From a virus, in the IMG/VR virus record IMGVR_UViG_3300021962_000552, positions 1 through 26,506 of that record: DNA of 26,506 nt, one strand, 5' to 3'. Shown here in pieces: positions 17,776 through 24,167 of the stretch. The notes under the pieces were generated by a model. That model did not search any database. It was not told the origin of the DNA and was given only the letters and a program-made list of their open reading frames with translations. Positions within the stretch are counted from its first letter, which is position 1. The number at the start of each line of letters is the position of its first letter. Made by a program: the position numbers and the translations under genes.

Positions 17776-17803
17776 AAAAAAGCCCCGCTGTTTAGGCGGG
17801 GCT
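17775..17803 (-). terminator. intrinsic terminator for the leftward arm
   Basis: GCCCCGC (17782-17788) pairs with GCGGGGC (17796-17802) across a 7-nt loop, extended by one A-T pair. Read leftward, the stem is followed directly by seven T (A-run 17775-17781 on the given strand), the classic factor-independent form. Read rightward there is no T-run, so it would stop the early arm but should be weak for the late arm. It abuts the stop of the giant late gene. Confidence 0.9.
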
Positions 17804-17843: not shown

Positions 17844-18050
17844 CTATATTGTACGTCTAACCCTCCAGATACGCAACCCACGTATCCCATCTTCTGTTAC
17901 TAGCTTAATGATTACCACAAACCCTAAGCGGTCCATTTTGGCTTCTATACGCTTTTTTGCTTTATCGGCGTTTAAGCAGGGTACAAAAAATGAACTGCCA
18001 ACCGTGAAATGTTGCCAGTCCAATTCATAAGTTAGCCCCTCAATCCGCAT
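17844..18050 (-). CDS. small GSSFFVP...RIWR-type phage protein
   Basis: A 68-residue protein starting MRIEGLTYELDW. The ATG at 18050 overlaps the end of the primase gene by 11 bases; a longer reading to 18095 would lie deeper in the primase and is less likely. The pattern DWQHFTVGSSFFVPC, then a helix (KAKKRIEAKMDRLG), then GIRGLRIWRV matches a layout I recall from many small phage proteins (W-x-x-[M/F]-x-V-G-x-S-F-F-V-P ... G-[V/L]-R-[V/I]-W-R). Its role is unknown; a compact nucleic-acid-binding or regulatory protein is plausible. It is the last gene of the leftward arm, just before its terminator. Confidence 0.65.
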   Translation of the reverse strand: MRIEGLTYELDWQHFTVGSSFFVPCLNADKAKKRIEAKMDRLGFVVIIKLVTEDGIRGLRIWRVRRTI

Positions 18051-20874
18051 CTTCCGCTGGTGCACTAAGGTCAACGCCAAGTAAATCGGCGTCAAACTCT
18101 AAGGCCACGACGGGCGGTGTCTGCAACTCAGTGCCAATATCTAGCCTAGTACGTACCTCTGCCACAAAAGCGCCCGTATTGTTCAGACCAGACAACAGGT
18201 CGGAAAACGTGATCTGCCGAGACACACAGAAGTTACGTAGTTCTTGACGGACAATGTAAAGCTTTTTAGTATCTGGCTCGTACCGTACGATCAGGGGGCC
18301 GCGAGGTACGACCAGTGGCGCCGCCGCTATGCCCGCCTTGGAAGTACTGTATTTATTTACAACCAAGGTATTGGTGTTGTGCTTCAATAAAAACTCACCT
18401 ACTACAGTGGCATAGTCGTTAAAGGTTGGGCGTACGGCTGTCTGCATACGCTTGATTTCTTCCACAAGCCAGTCAAAAACATGCTTGTAGTTAATATCGT
18501 GGAGACCCAGCTTGTGTGCAAACATACCCCCAGCTATATTTCCCGCCCCCATAGCAGACCAAAACCGCTCACGAGTTTCAATGTTCACCGCCTTGTCTAG
18601 CTTTACCTGTAGTTTTAAGGCTGTTTCTATGCACTCCTCCAGATTTTGGACAAGAAACTGGGCGTACGGGCCACCCGCATGCCCGTAATTACTTTGTAAT
18701 CTGCCAAAGATTTGTTTGGCTGTAGCCTTGTCAAGGTTGTTGGTAGGGTCAATACGGAACTGCATAAGCCGCATCAACTCACCCTCAGTAACTGATTTTA
18801 GCGATTCAAGCTTGTCGATCATATCTGCGTTAGAGGTGGACACCATCATAGTTGCCCAGAACCCCTGTGACGCACGTTCTTCGTTACTGTTAGCCTTCAT
18901 CCTACGACGAGGTGCGCCCTGAGTAACACTGTATGCCAAGTCAGAAAAGTCATCCGCGTTCATCTTGGTAACTTCATCAACCCCTAGCGGCAAATTACAC
19001 ATAACTGCCATACGATGCAGCTTAACATTCATGGTGTCTTTCCACTGAAGCATTAGCTCATCGGGGTGTCCCCATACGCTGTTCATAACCTGAAGGATAG
19101 TGGATTTACCAGTACCAGATTTATTGTTCAGCAAATTAATAATGCCGCCCTTGATCCCCAAAAACTTAACCAGCGGTGCGCCAAATGCTGTAAAAACTGC
19201 AAACGCATGCGGCTCAAAACCCGGCATGTTATAGACGTTAATGATATCTTTCCATTCTTCAAACGAGCCCATCGGCTTCATAGCAGGAGATAGCTCTCTG
19301 GTGCTTTTTGAAGGGGGGCTGTATCGAATGTAATTGGCGCCTATCTCGCGGTCTCCAAGAATAAACTTCTGATCATTGTCTGCCCAACCAAACTGAATAC
19401 GCATAGTTTCAACCTCCTGTGATATTTGTAACTCCTTAGCACATTGCACCAGATAGTCCAGAATCAAGGCCATCTGTGGTGGTAAGGCAATCACCCCATT
19501 AAATGCAAGAACTTCCCGCAGCTTTTCCTTGCTCAGGGCATCCATTACTGATAAGGGGAATTCTTTGACACCGTCACGAGGTAGCGTCATCCGGATTAGC
19601 ATGGTCTCTCCGGAGCTTGGATCCCACATGCGTTTTGTAACAAACAGATCGTACTCATACACAAGCGCAGTCTGCATGTCGCCGTCTTCATCTTCCTTTA
19701 AGTACTTATAGATACCGCCGTTCTTTCCACGGAAATACCTGCTTGGCATCTTTGGAACCGTGAACGCAGGGACGGGAGCTTTGTCTTCCGCTACTGGCGC
19801 GGTAAATTCCACTACGGTACCCTCTTCAGACTTGGCAATCTCGTTCCCAAGTACGATTGGTGACTTTATTTTGCCTTTATGAATACACGTATTGCAAATA
19901 TTGGGCGCTGCTGCATTAAACTTATCACATGTATAAGGGCCTTTTGTGTTGTTTGCCTTGGTTTCTGTAGCCTGTGGGTCATACTTTGGGTGCTTATTAG
20001 ATATAAAGTGGATCGCTTTGTCCCCATCGACACAGTGTCTAGCGATGGATAGCCCCGCCCGCCATAGCGGTTCTTCTATATCTGTCTGATTCTCTATGAT
20101 GTTGCGTAATTGTTCACAACCAAAACCAGCGACAGTCTTTTCTACAATGGTCTTAAACCTAGATTGCTTGTTCCCCATCAGCGCTTTGGTTAGCTCATCA
20201 AGCTCCACTGGCTTACGCGCTGGTTTGGGCGGGGCGATTGGCCCCATGAGTTTTGCAAAGTCGTCAAAAGCCATGGGCTCAGACGTATTCATTTGCACAA
20301 CATCTAGGCTCCCACCATCCTTAAAGTTTTTGGTGCCGGGTATCCGCAGAACACGGGCGGCATCAGACGGCACGGCGGGATCCCCGATGAACTTATGCTT
20401 AACGCACAGATTCTTAAACGCTTCGGCAACGGGTACCCACTTGTCTTTTTCCACCGCCTCAGTTAGCGGCCAGTACACATGCCAACCCCGCCCAGAATTA
20501 ACTATAGTTGGCTGTGGCAAACCTGTGTCTTTACACAAGTCTTTCAGAGCCTGCATCCCAGTGGCTTGGTCTATGTAGCCTTTTATGCGCCCGTTTTTAT
20601 CTGGCTTGGCTTTGTCTTCCCCGCAGTCTATGTCGAGGAAAAAAGCCTGCATCCAACCGCAGTTGTCCGCTTCTCTACTCTTGTCTGTCAGGAATTTACC
20701 TAAGCTGAAGTAGGCACAACGGCCCTCTGCAACCAAGCTGTCTGCTTTAGCTTCTACTTCTTCTAGTGTTTTGTAGTGCCATTGCTTCGGCCTCTTGCCG
20801 TCCAACAGCGAAAATACACAGTACCAACCTTCATTAGAAGCTACTACCCGCCGTAGCAATTCGATATCCGCCAT
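18040..20874 (-). CDS. primase-helicase: AEP-like primase fused to DUF927/RecA-like helicase
   Basis: A 944-residue replication protein. The N-terminal half looks like an archaeo-eukaryotic-type primase/polymerase: FFLDIDCG with metal-binding D81 and D83, NSGRGWHVYWPL with H132, and PSDAARVLRIPGTKNF (about 169-184). A PriCT-like middle (about 255-345) ends in a small Cys cluster (ICNTCIHKGK, near 323-332). The C-terminal half is an ATPase with Walker A SGTGKST (586-592) and Walker B LPLGVDEV (D633, E634), as in DUF927 primase-helicases. It would unwind and prime the phage DNA. AGGA lies 5 nt before the ATG. Upstream, after an 87-base gap with a strong hairpin, is the HTH gene, which together with the ssDNA-binding gene forms a replication operon. 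The domain order is clear; exact family membership rests on motifs. Confidence 0.88.
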   Translation of the reverse strand: MADIELLRRVVASNEGWYCVFSLLDGKRPKQWHYKTLEEVEAKADSLVAEGRCAYFSLGKFLTDKSREADNCGWMQAFFLDIDCGEDKAKPDKNGRIKGYIDQATGMQALKDLCKDTGLPQPTIVNSGRGWHVYWPLTEAVEKDKWVPVAEAFKNLCVKHKFIGDPAVPSDAARVLRIPGTKNFKDGGSLDVVQMNTSEPMAFDDFAKLMGPIAPPKPARKPVELDELTKALMGNKQSRFKTIVEKTVAGFGCEQLRNIIENQTDIEEPLWRAGLSIARHCVDGDKAIHFISNKHPKYDPQATETKANNTKGPYTCDKFNAAAPNICNTCIHKGKIKSPIVLGNEIAKSEEGTVVEFTAPVAEDKAPVPAFTVPKMPSRYFRGKNGGIYKYLKEDEDGDMQTALVYEYDLFVTKRMWDPSSGETMLIRMTLPRDGVKEFPLSVMDALSKEKLREVLAFNGVIALPPQMALILDYLVQCAKELQISQEVETMRIQFGWADNDQKFILGDREIGANYIRYSPPSKSTRELSPAMKPMGSFEEWKDIINVYNMPGFEPHAFAVFTAFGAPLVKFLGIKGGIINLLNNKSGTGKSTILQVMNSVWGHPDELMLQWKDTMNVKLHRMAVMCNLPLGVDEVTKMNADDFSDLAYSVTQGAPRRRMKANSNEERASQGFWATMMVSTSNADMIDKLESLKSVTEGELMRLMQFRIDPTNNLDKATAKQIFGRLQSNYGHAGGPYAQFLVQNLEECIETALKLQVKLDKAVNIETRERFWSAMGAGNIAGGMFAHKLGLHDINYKHVFDWLVEEIKRMQTAVRPTFNDYATVVGEFLLKHNTNTLVVNKYSTSKAGIAAAPLVVPRGPLIVRYEPDTKKLYIVRQELRNFCVSRQITFSDLLSGLNNTGAFVAEVRTRLDIGTELQTPPVVALEFDADLLGVDLSAPAEDAD

Positions 20875-20961: not shown

Positions 20962-21183
20962 TTACGTCAACAATATGGCCTGCATTTGAGGCGCGTAGCT
21001 TTGGTGAGGCTCGTGTACACCGGTGAACCAGTTGTACACAGTCTGCTTACTTACACCCATCACATCTACGATATGGGAGACTGGGATGTTTTTCTCTATG
21101 CAGTGCTTACCAAGCTGAACGCCAAGGCTTTTCTTGTTAGCCTTGCGATTTAGCTCACGTATTCTTACACTGTACCCAATCAC
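20962..21183 (-). CDS. small helix-turn-helix DNA-binding protein (Cro/XRE-like)
   Basis: About 73 residues. Starting at the GTG at 21183 it overlaps the preceding stop as GTGA and has GGGGAG 7 nt upstream; an in-frame GTG at 21198 is the alternative start. After a basic N-terminus (RIRELNRKANKK), the protein has LGKHCIEKNIPVSHIVDVMGVSKQTVYNWFTG. This is a clear HTH in which VSKQTVYNWFTG is the recognition region. The size suits a phage repressor or Cro-type regulator with only a DNA-binding domain. The obvious candidate site is the dyad at the promoter near 22508-22533, which would make the operon autoregulated; this is inference. It could instead bind replication sites. Confidence 0.75.
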   Translation of the reverse strand: MIGYSVRIRELNRKANKKSLGVQLGKHCIEKNIPVSHIVDVMGVSKQTVYNWFTGVHEPHQSYAPQMQAILLT

Positions 21184-22058
21184 GCGTCGTCTCCCCACTC
21201 ATCCACCATAGAAGCCAAGTTTTGATTTGGCTTCGGTGCTGCGGCTTGGGCTTTCTTACGGACTACGGGCTCTACCAATTTCTCTTCTTCCTTAATAGAT
21301 GCTGCTGCGGAACCTGCCGGTGCTACCAGCTTAGGCAGCTGCGGATCAGATTTCTTGGTGAAGTTTAACTTACTGGCGTTAACCGCAGTTAGGGATTTAC
21401 CCTGCTCTAGGCAGACATCGTAGGTCTCTCTGTCCAAAAATCCTGCGTTAGCAAACACTAACTTAGGGAAATCGCTATCGGTATCGAAAGACAGCCGGGT
21501 AGTAAGCATGTTCAGGTTATAGCCTGACTGCCCAACATACTTGGCGTACTGAAGGAACGGCATACTGTCAACGCTACCTTGACCAAAAATAGATTTCTGG
21601 GGGAGGATAAGTTGGAACACGTCCCCACGGGGGTTGTTGCTCAGTACGACAGCCAAGCGCATACTGAACCGACATGCCGCCCTGCCCGCCCCGCCCGAAC
21701 CTTTGATAGCCTTGGGGCACTCCTTACAGTTAGAGCCCTGTGGTTGTTCTACGTCAGCATCTGGACGCTCCCCGTTGCTAGACCAGCAATCCGGTACAGA
21801 AGTCTCATCGGGGTTGTACTCGCCAGAGTAAAAAGCCTTCTGCACGGTCTTGGTGCCATTGACAATCACCACATCCATGTGGGGGTCTGTATTCTTGGCG
21901 ATCTCCTTACCGCCATCCACCATCCTAAACACGCGCCCACGCAGAGTAATGCGTTTGACGCTGCCACCCGATTTGGTAAAGGACTTGGTAAAGTCGTCGA
22001 GTTCCACACTCTGAAGATGTGCGGGAAGTGATTCACGAAAAGTTGTAATGTTACTCAT
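21180..22058 (-). CDS. probable single-stranded DNA-binding protein with four-cysteine motif
   Basis: A 292-residue protein. I chose the ATG at 22058 because AAGGAG lies 9 nt upstream; a TTG 18 bases earlier is unlikely. The N-terminal half is beta-rich (SVKRITLRGRVFRMVDGG, MDVVIVNG, KAFYSGEY), as in OB-fold proteins. Cys91, Cys111, Cys114 and Cys129 (CWSSNG, CKECPK, AACRF) form a candidate zinc site. The C-terminal third is disordered, Ala/Pro/Lys/Glu-rich, and ends in VDEWGDDA, an acidic tail of the kind SSB proteins use to contact replication partners. Its place in an operon with primase-helicase and near an SNF2 helicase supports an ssDNA-binding role. The call is by composition and context, not by a firm family match. 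Confidence 0.6.
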   Translation of the reverse strand: MSNITTFRESLPAHLQSVELDDFTKSFTKSGGSVKRITLRGRVFRMVDGGKEIAKNTDPHMDVVIVNGTKTVQKAFYSGEYNPDETSVPDCWSSNGERPDADVEQPQGSNCKECPKAIKGSGGAGRAACRFSMRLAVVLSNNPRGDVFQLILPQKSIFGQGSVDSMPFLQYAKYVGQSGYNLNMLTTRLSFDTDSDFPKLVFANAGFLDRETYDVCLEQGKSLTAVNASKLNFTKKSDPQLPKLVAPAGSAAASIKEEEKLVEPVVRKKAQAAAPKPNQNLASMVDEWGDDA

Positions 22059-22474: not shown

Positions 22475-22494
22475 AGTCTCTCCTTGTTGAACAA

Positions 22495-22523
22495 ATTATA
22501 CGGGCTGTACTAGACTTTGTCAA
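22495..22523 (-). promoter_or_regulatory. perfect-consensus sigma70 promoter for the replication operon
   Basis: Read leftward: TTGACA (22523-22518), a 17-base spacer, then TATAAT (22500-22495). Both hexamers and the spacing match the sigma70 consensus exactly. Transcription would start near 22488 and give a short leader with AAGGAG before the ATG at 22474. The -35 overlaps the stop of the helicase gene. Confidence 0.92.
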
Positions 22524-22533
22524 GCGTCTAGTA
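22508..22533. promoter_or_regulatory. candidate operator: 8-bp perfect dyad centred on the -35 box
   Basis: TACTAGAC (22508-22515) and GTCTAGTA (22526-22533) are perfect inverted copies separated by 10 bases that contain most of the -35 hexamer. A dimeric repressor bound here would block RNA polymerase. One arm lies in the last codons of the helicase gene. The HTH protein in the same operon is the natural candidate; binding is inferred. Confidence 0.65.
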
Positions 22534-23899
22534 GCTCTTTTTTGTATAAATCCACGATTTTTTCATGGTTGCTTATGTTGCTCTGAAGCATTGTGTACAG
22601 CCTACGCTCAATCGGGCTACCCTGAATGTGCACGACAGTCATGGGGTGCCGTTGCCCCGGCCTGTTTATGCGGGCGTTAGCCTGCAAATAAGTTTCGGTG
22701 GACGTGACTGGGGCGTACCATATTATGGTATCCGCAGCGGTTAAGGTTACTCCGTGGGAAGCAGCTTGTGGCTGGATAACAAGCGCTTTAATCGTTGGCT
22801 TCTCTTGAAAGTCTTTGAAGATAGCTGCTCGTTTGTGTGCTGGAACTTCGCCATTGATAACTTCGCACGTTACGCCGTTTTTTGTTAGGTGCTCCTTGAG
22901 TAGTTCAATGGCATGGCGGAACGGAGCAAATATAAGAACTTTATGGTTTGCCTCGTCTATCACCTCCTGCACAACATTCATCCTAGATGACACATCAAAT
23001 TCAATCGTTGCACCGCTATCTGAATACACAGCCCCACAAGCTATTTGAAGCAGCTTGTTCATTTTTGCAGCAGCATTGACAGTACTGACTTCCTCGCCCG
23101 CTAGCTCAAGAAGCATTTCCTTTTTTAGCTCTTTGTAATACTTAGCCTGCGATGGGGTCAATGGAGCCATACGACTCGTGTATGTAACGTCAGGCAAGTC
23201 TAGGCATTGAGCTTTTTCGTACCGAATGGCAGGCTGCAACATGTCAAACACAATCTGGTTTGCGTGTGGACGCGGAATCCAGCGATACATGTCTAGCTTT
23301 TGCATGACAGACTCGCGGTAGTCACCAAAGAAGCGAGGGGCTCGCTGGGGTACGCATAGTCGGCCTAAACCGTACGCATCCACCGGGGATTGAGCGGCGG
23401 GCGTTCCGGTAAGCATCCACAGACGGGTGCTAGGAGACACAAGCTTGTTCATGATTTTCCAGCGTTTTGTCTGTACGTTTTTGTACGCGTTGGCTTCATC
23501 AATGACAATCAAATCAAACTTACCGTACTCCAGTATGTTGCTAGCTACGGTGTTGACCCCATCGTAGTTAATGATGACAAACTCCGCTGGGCCACTGATG
23601 ATCTTAGCCCGCTTAGCAGCATCGCCGTAAGCTACGTCTACCGTGCGGTGCACCGCAAACTTAAACAAGTCAGTCTGCCATGCAGATTGCATGATAGATA
23701 GCGGGCATATGACAAGCACTCTTTTCACCAACCCCAAAGACATCAGGTAATCCGCCGCCCATATAACAGACGCTGTCTTACCAGTGCCTTGCTCGTTAAA
23801 GCAAAAAGCCCGTTGGCGCAAAGCCAAGAATTTAGCAGTGTCTTTCTGGTGGCTAAACGGTTCAAACCCCAGAGGGCGCGGCCACTTATAGTTGTCCAT
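22520..23899 (-). CDS. SNF2-type superfamily 2 DNA helicase/translocase
   Basis: A 459-residue ATP-dependent DNA translocase. Motifs in order: a Q-motif-like FEPFSHQKDTAKF (12-24), Walker A NEQGTGKTA (35-43), motif Ia VLVICPLSIM (61-70), the DEAH-box equivalent VIDEANAYKN (132-141), motif III LTGTP (163-167), a second RecA lobe with INGEVPAHKR, motif V QAASHGVTLTAADTIIWYAP and motif VI QANARINRPGQR (about 400-411). RINRPGQ is typical of SNF2 rather than DEAD-box enzymes. I chose the ATG at 23899, one base after the HNH stop. An extension to 24031 would run through the HNH gene in another frame and looks like shadow sequence. It probably remodels DNA during replication or recombination. Confidence 0.88.
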   Translation of the reverse strand: MDNYKWPRPLGFEPFSHQKDTAKFLALRQRAFCFNEQGTGKTASVIWAADYLMSLGLVKRVLVICPLSIMQSAWQTDLFKFAVHRTVDVAYGDAAKRAKIISGPAEFVIINYDGVNTVASNILEYGKFDLIVIDEANAYKNVQTKRWKIMNKLVSPSTRLWMLTGTPAAQSPVDAYGLGRLCVPQRAPRFFGDYRESVMQKLDMYRWIPRPHANQIVFDMLQPAIRYEKAQCLDLPDVTYTSRMAPLTPSQAKYYKELKKEMLLELAGEEVSTVNAAAKMNKLLQIACGAVYSDSGATIEFDVSSRMNVVQEVIDEANHKVLIFAPFRHAIELLKEHLTKNGVTCEVINGEVPAHKRAAIFKDFQEKPTIKALVIQPQAASHGVTLTAADTIIWYAPVTSTETYLQANARINRPGQRHPMTVVHIQGSPIERRLYTMLQSNISNHEKIVDLYKKELLDA

Positions 23900-23900
23900 G

Positions 23901-24167
23901 CTACTTAGGGGTGTGGTCGCTGTTCCTTTTGTAAGACCTGTTGTTTGACGCGGACTGGACGCGGAGGTTACTACGGGCGGTACTCCCGCCCTTGCTGAGG
24001 GGTCGTTTGTGATCAACATCTTTTCCGTCACCTTTATGAACTAGTCCTTCTCGTTCTAATTCGCGCCTAGCTTTATTGCGTAAGGCGCGTTTTTTCTTCA
24101 CCGCCGGAGTCCCATCGTACATCTCATACTCGTGCTTGTACGGGCGTGGTTTGTTTACGTACGGCAT
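23901..24167 (-). CDS. small HNH endonuclease
   Basis: An 88-residue basic protein. AAGGAG lies 7 nt before the ATG. After a Lys/Arg-rich helix (KKKRALRNKARRELERE), the core GKDVDHKRPLSKGGSTARSNLRV plus SASNNRSYKR gives the HNH pattern: DH for metal and catalysis, then N in SNL, then N in NNRS. The usual zinc-binding CxxC pairs are absent, as in other minimal phage HNH proteins. It is fused by position, not sequence, to the SNF2 helicase gene one base downstream, so the two may act together in DNA processing or packaging-related cleavage. A homing endonuclease is less likely because the gene sits cleanly within the operon. Confidence 0.8.
   Translation of the reverse strand: MPYVNKPRPYKHEYEMYDGTPAVKKKRALRNKARRELEREGLVHKGDGKDVDHKRPLSKGGSTARSNLRVQSASNNRSYKRNSDHTPK

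Follow-up and report, generated by a model that had tools for sequence, protein, structure and literature searches.

A host-type promoter of full consensus, sitting across the end of a helicase gene in an uncultured phage, raises the question of what holds it in check. The original prediction placed this promoter in a perfect dyad and proposed that a small helix-turn-helix (HTH) protein, encoded in the operon that it drives, would bind there and repress its own transcription. We examined both parts of this idea in the window, by which we mean the whole 26,506-base stretch analysed; the source record consists of this window only, which ends before other early promoters, and the comparative results below therefore come from related records. 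Features of the locus are collected in Table 1.

Table 1. Features of the helicase-end promoter and of the operon downstream of it, with positions in the window
Feature	Position	Strand	Remarks
-35 hexamer TTGACA	22518..22523	-	Holds the SNF2 helicase TGA stop and most of the left operator half-site
-10 hexamer TATAAT	22495..22500	-	Spacer of 17 bp to the -35 hexamer
Originally predicted dyad, TACTAGAC-N10-GTCTAGTA	22508..22533	+	Present, unconserved, at chance level
Operator-like dyad CTTGAC-AAA-GTCTAG, 15 bp	22510..22524	-	Family consensus CTTGAC-N3-GTCNAG
SNF2/DEAD-like helicase gene	22520..24031	-	End lies inside the -35 box
First gene past the promoter, 133 aa	22073..22474	-	phrog_13900 ('minor head protein')
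292-aa protein	21180..22058	-	phrog_27714, function unassigned; same place throughout the family
Small HTH, 78-aa ORF	20962..21198	-	Proposed repressor; predicted XRE/Cro-C1 fold
DUF927 primase/helicase, 944 aa	18040..20874	-	Part of the replication operon
Small downstream ORF	17844..18095	-	83 aa as listed in the ORF list; later start likely
Intrinsic-terminator-like hairpin	17781..17803	-	8 pairs, 7 of them G-C, T6; early operon end, between convergent modules

The promoter itself was confirmed. TTGACA-17-TATAAT on the minus strand (22523..22495) is the sole 12/12 sigma70-type match in the window, and no such match arose in 100 shuffles. It lies between the SNF2-type helicase gene on one side and the gene for the 133-aa protein on the other, with the helicase stop codon TGA (22522..22520) falling within the -35 box. 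The 133-aa, 292-aa, HTH and DUF927 genes all follow downstream on the same strand, indicating that the promoter drives a replication operon and that the HTH protein is one of its products, encoded by the third gene. The terminator-like hairpin at the far end of the operon faces the convergent structural genes. The 'minor head protein' name of phrog_13900, which is also found in Xanthomonas phage Xp15, is doubtful for the 133-aa gene because that gene sits among replication genes. A DUF927 primase/helicase relative in Rhizobium phage RHph_TM3_14A (L169) is annotated as 'putative integrase protein', probably a misannotation. Two further repeats were noted near these genes. An inverted repeat with 15-nt arms, 80 % complementary and 8 nt apart, spans 21204-21241, within the final part of the 292-aa gene and immediately ahead of the HTH gene; a palindrome directly after the -10 box (TTGTT-C-AACAA, TTGTTGAACAA, 22485-22495) was set aside, as it is not kept in relatives.

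The dyad that had been picked out at this promoter did not withstand comparison. Its letters are present on the plus strand, TACTAGAC at 22508-22515 and GTCTAGTA at 22526-22533, and the 10 bp gap contains the -35 box; only this box can be said to be embedded, because the -10 box falls outside the dyad. The window contains 10 perfect 8+8 dyads whose arms are 3-20 bp apart; sequence simulated with its dinucleotide make-up gives 7.65 (sd 2.6), so that the observed number is at the level of chance. Across 30 non-redundant loci with TTGAC at the helicase stop, all eight positions pair in the window alone, and typically 2-4 of 8 do so elsewhere. The left arm encodes Leu-Leu-Asp, the last codons of the helicase, and drifts freely among relatives. 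It is missing altogether from divergent relatives that retain the promoter, and by this test, proposed in the original prediction itself, the 8+8 dyad is therefore refuted. The idea that the operator is TACTAGAC-N10-GTCTAGTA, or that this dyad folds as an RNA hairpin where the helicase message ends, draws on its perfection in the window and on an RNA fold of -10.8 kcal/mol. Its chance-level frequency and the loss of the left arm speak against this idea, as do one-arm changes that go uncompensated in the other arm, and therefore show that base pairing is not maintained; an RNA hairpin or a terminator closing the helicase gene was rejected on the same lack of maintained pairing and on the absence of a T-run. 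We regard this explanation as exceedingly improbable. Judged by comparison among relatives, the originally named dyad is a coincidence of the last codons of the helicase, overlying a real dyad.

That dyad is shorter, overlaps the first and had gone unnamed. IMG/VR was queried with two proteins, the helicase and the 292-aa one, which yielded 112 loci, and dozens of relatives displayed a promoter at the same helicase-stop position with the conserved sequence CTTGACANNGTCNAG. In the consensus CTTGAC-N3-GTCNAG, the left half is the -35 box and the right half lies in the spacer, so that the centre falls at the -35/spacer junction. The right half-site carries 1.5-1.9 bits of information at G, T and A (positions 8, 9 and 12) and approximately 0.9 bits at C and in the last position (G/A) in the 30 non-redundant loci, with just 0-0.4 bits at spacer positions 14-21; one row of this alignment (L167, Effie) contributes TTGAC without a promoter. 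At least four of the six dyad pairs are retained in 27/30 loci. The site in the window has one mismatched pair of six, and the dyad is fully symmetric in several lineages (L009, L015, L053, L073, L081, L095 and L097), extending to 9-3-9 in L015 and L053. Its centre is more changeable than its halves: AAA is flipped to TTT in L053 and L081 (TTGACTTTGTCAA), and other central changes occur in L097 (TTGACTAAGTCAA) and L074 (TTGACC). The half-sites are intact in all four, whereas the -35 hexamer loses its match at the sixth position. As far as aligned sequences can tell, this is the behaviour of a site for a symmetric dimer and not of a pure promoter motif. No comparable promoter and dyad were found after the helicase in the cultured relatives Acinetobacter Effie/HHU4, Xanthomonas Xp15 and Rhizobium TM3_14A, and a literature search for the operator sequence found no paper.

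The site is not confined to the helicase end. The pattern TTGACNNNGTCNA was found in 17/20 longer related records, usually on the early strand and ~7-8 kb apart, and a reversed-pattern control was rare in the same 20 records. In relatives it is carried by three classes of promoter: one heads the early region, a second serves the VRR-NUC/DNA polymerase operon and the third is the replication-operon promoter. The sites occupy unrelated sequence contexts. GTCNA at this spacing was present in 36 of the 47 strong early promoters of 15 related records; these promoters are related to one another and do not count as independent observations. Strong promoters free of the dyad occur in the same phages (G004, G007, G011, G013 and G018), where they are probably those heading the early region; the motif is therefore not needed for promoter strength. 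When IMG/VR was scanned with the DNA pattern and no protein query, this phage family accounted for 28 of ~118 new loci, whilst the remaining loci look like background or other phages. In bacterial genomes, the matches listed for the operator-promoter pattern were scattered over unrelated phyla and were taken as background. TTGACANNGTCAA was also seen at TATAAT promoters in phage contigs without family gene matches (L186, L187, L189, L191, L204 and others).

A second perfect dyad was observed at the early-region head promoter of relatives, outside the window. It begins within the -10 box and runs across the start site, for example as CAATGTATCT-TT-AGATACATTG, TAATATACC-TT-GGTATATTA or TACTCTAC-TAT-GTAGAGTA, and was noted at L171, L174, L179, L130, L133, L135, L138, L141, L147, L150, L152 and L243. 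Its right arm covaries with the -10 box (TATAAT, TACAAT, TATACT), which amounts to paired changes in both arms. This -10-based dyad might be another operator, or an element that works through its structure.

We then considered which protein might bind the -35-based site. The start of the small HTH gene is suggested by relatives to be a GTG at 21183 (VIGYS...), giving a protein of 73 aa. Its AlphaFold model (pLDDT 92.7) has five helices (6-14, 20-30, 35-42, 46-53 and 61-72) in a predicted XRE/Cro-C1 fold, and its structural matches (VIA-align, Z 5.8-7.2) are mostly XRE-type proteins, e.g. P22 c2, SinR, DdrO, CylR2 and HigA, with 434 Cro also among them. Against Pfam HTH_3 (PF01381) the protein scored 14.9 bits, for a cut-off of 23; 24/40 family members matched at E<=0.01, four relatives exceeded the cut-off in the genome search, and each related record had at most one match. 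Nearly all family members encode the small HTH, including ones that lack the dyad, and the recognition helix of this protein appears to be linked with the site. In the window this helix reads SKQTVYNWF. All 76 HTHs with Gln at its third position ([ST][KR]Q..YNWF and near variants) come with TTGAC-N3-GTNNA at the promoter (59 GTC, 17 GTA/GTT), whilst among the 28 with another residue there none comes with GTC and 24 are without any site. Conversely, every one of the 59 loci with TTGAC-N3-GTCNA carries Gln at this position. Mapping these states onto the helicase tree gave three independent changes for Gln and four for GTC, making 2-3 independent pairs, and a sign test was not significant. With only three or four changes on the tree, the correlation between helix and site is thus consistent but not statistically independent. 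Across the sequences compared, the recognition helix tracks the presence of the operator; because about three independent changes support this covariation, we infer rather than observe that the HTH is the binder.

Taken together, the arrangement that we favour, and hold to be somewhat probable, is a replication promoter with an operator built on its -35 box, bound by a dimer of the HTH from its own operon, in a Cro-like autoregulation that would extend to shared control of early genes. The promoter would be read by host RNA polymerase as sigma70-type and would act at full strength on infection. An HTH dimer from the same operon would most likely bind CTTGAC-N3-GTCNAG (CTTGACAAAGTCTAG in the window), and once bound at the -35 box would exclude RNA polymerase. 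As the protein accumulated, the promoter would be turned down. In relatives, the same operator lies on the VRR-NUC/DNA polymerase promoter and often on the early head promoter, and one protein would therefore be expected to shut down early genes together. We infer here the identity of the binder, repression rather than activation, and the timing. Several observations count against this arrangement: the small number of independent changes behind the link between helix and site, the mismatched pair in the window's own site, the strong promoters of G004, G007, G011, G013 and G018 that lack the dyad, and a possible alternative binder in close relatives, considered below. The wider idea of a full-strength promoter restrained by a dyad-binding repressor, with autoregulation by the HTH, is nevertheless well supported by the shared operator and by the tracking of the helix, the HTH being a candidate binder, but the candidate operator is CTTGAC-N3-GTCNAG, which at 22510-22524 overlaps the promoter of the operon encoding the HTH, and not the 8+8 dyad first proposed.

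The absence of an integrase, first remarked on for the window, was also seen in 16 related records, none of which had a match to tyrosine integrase PF00589, a family detected in 14/14 control genomes; the search covers PF00589, serine recombinases fall outside it, and the records may be incomplete. No candidate for a divergent CI-type repressor was noticed in the early region of G001. Given that none of the 16 related records has a tyrosine integrase, an early shut-off during lytic growth looks likelier than a lysogeny switch, and the family is probably lytic.

Other explanations of the conserved dyad were weighed against the same observations. GTCNA might be a spacer motif preferred by host RNA polymerase, its conservation reflecting promoter strength alone, and it does occur mostly at strong TTGACA promoters. 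It is, however, missing from the strong promoters of G004, G007, G011, G013 and G018 and from the equivalent promoter of Pseudomonas phage Rollin, and the half-sites persist in TTGACT and TTGACC variants that weaken the -35 box, which makes this explanation very unlikely. We also find it quite improbable that the HTH is an activator, or a replication or segregation protein with iteron-like anchors. The spacing of the sites, with intervals of ~7-8 kb in the early region, and the presence of the HTH in one operon with the primase/helicase would suit such a role. A protein centred at about -30 occupies the classical position for repression, and as the site extends over the -35 box and into the spacer, a protein bound there would keep RNA polymerase off; moreover, most sites are at promoters, and a consensus promoter such as this one needs no activator.

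A different binder altogether, such as a second phage regulator of the HTH-DUF3310 type or a host repressor which the phage either uses to its advantage or has yet to evade, is unlikely but carries more weight. Many relatives encode, upstream of the helicase gene, an HTH-DUF3310-like protein (e.g. L159:1553-2077), so assigned by sequence reading from an N-terminal HTH-like stretch and a DUF3310-like C-terminal part, and the small HTH also occurs in family members that lack the dyad. On the other hand, where the dyad is lost or altered, the small HTH also has a changed recognition helix, and the HTH-DUF3310-like protein had no match in the window and aligned only partly in several relatives. 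A host repressor would have to be one and the same in many hosts, since the site is kept across many divergent phage lineages. The small HTH therefore remains our preferred candidate for the binder.

The proposed circuit has counterparts in known systems. In the Cro circuit, the regulator is encoded in the operon that it controls. Lambdoid Cro, P22 c2 and 434 repressors are likewise small HTH proteins of XRE fold, with a symmetric operator of ~15 bp over an early promoter and half-sites about one helical turn apart. In contrast to lambdoid Cro/CI, no opposing CI gene, tripartite operator or integrase was found here, the HTH of the window falls below Pfam cut-offs, the -35 box is itself a half-site and the operator is repeated 7-8 kb apart. 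The repressor of mycobacteriophages L5 and TipsytheTRex similarly acts at several sites across the genome, including early promoters (PMC9283540). Those sites are asymmetric 13-mers, with more than 20 per genome and many in short intergenic spaces, and the L5-type repressor is a two-domain protein of 183 residues that binds as a monomer (PMC9283540), whereas here the site is a dyad, usually with 2-4 sites per record, located at promoters, and the protein has fewer than 80 residues. Pseudomonas phage Rollin (OR577172), which is cultured and only distantly related, shares with the window a syntenic helicase, relatives of the 133-aa-type and 292-aa-type proteins, a small HTH-like gene and a DUF927-type primase/helicase, and it too has a promoter at the stop codon of the helicase gene. 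It differs in that protein identity is only ~29-37 %, the dyad is absent (1/6 pairs) and the small protein in the position of the HTH is unrelated, with the helix NLMPNTAARWL. By analogy, the circuit would work like Cro/CI autoregulation and faintly like the operators and stoperators of L5; we do not claim membership in either class.

These results also indicate that a dyad picked by eye may be a coincidence atop a real one, a matter that comparison resolved in this case. If the -35 box does form part of the operator, the same bases would serve both host polymerase and phage repressor. More tentatively, one tiny HTH repressor with a -35-built operator might govern the whole early programme of a widespread, strictly lytic, uncultured family, with the second, covarying -10 dyad adding a structurally different control at the head promoter; we consider this possible but doubtful. 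In sum, the locus would represent a new, uncultured example of an already known type of circuit. It provides a candidate regulator, operator and small regulon for a phage lineage of fresh and marine waters that is represented almost exclusively by metagenomes, and a prediction of when and how early transcription may be switched off in phages without signs of lysogeny.
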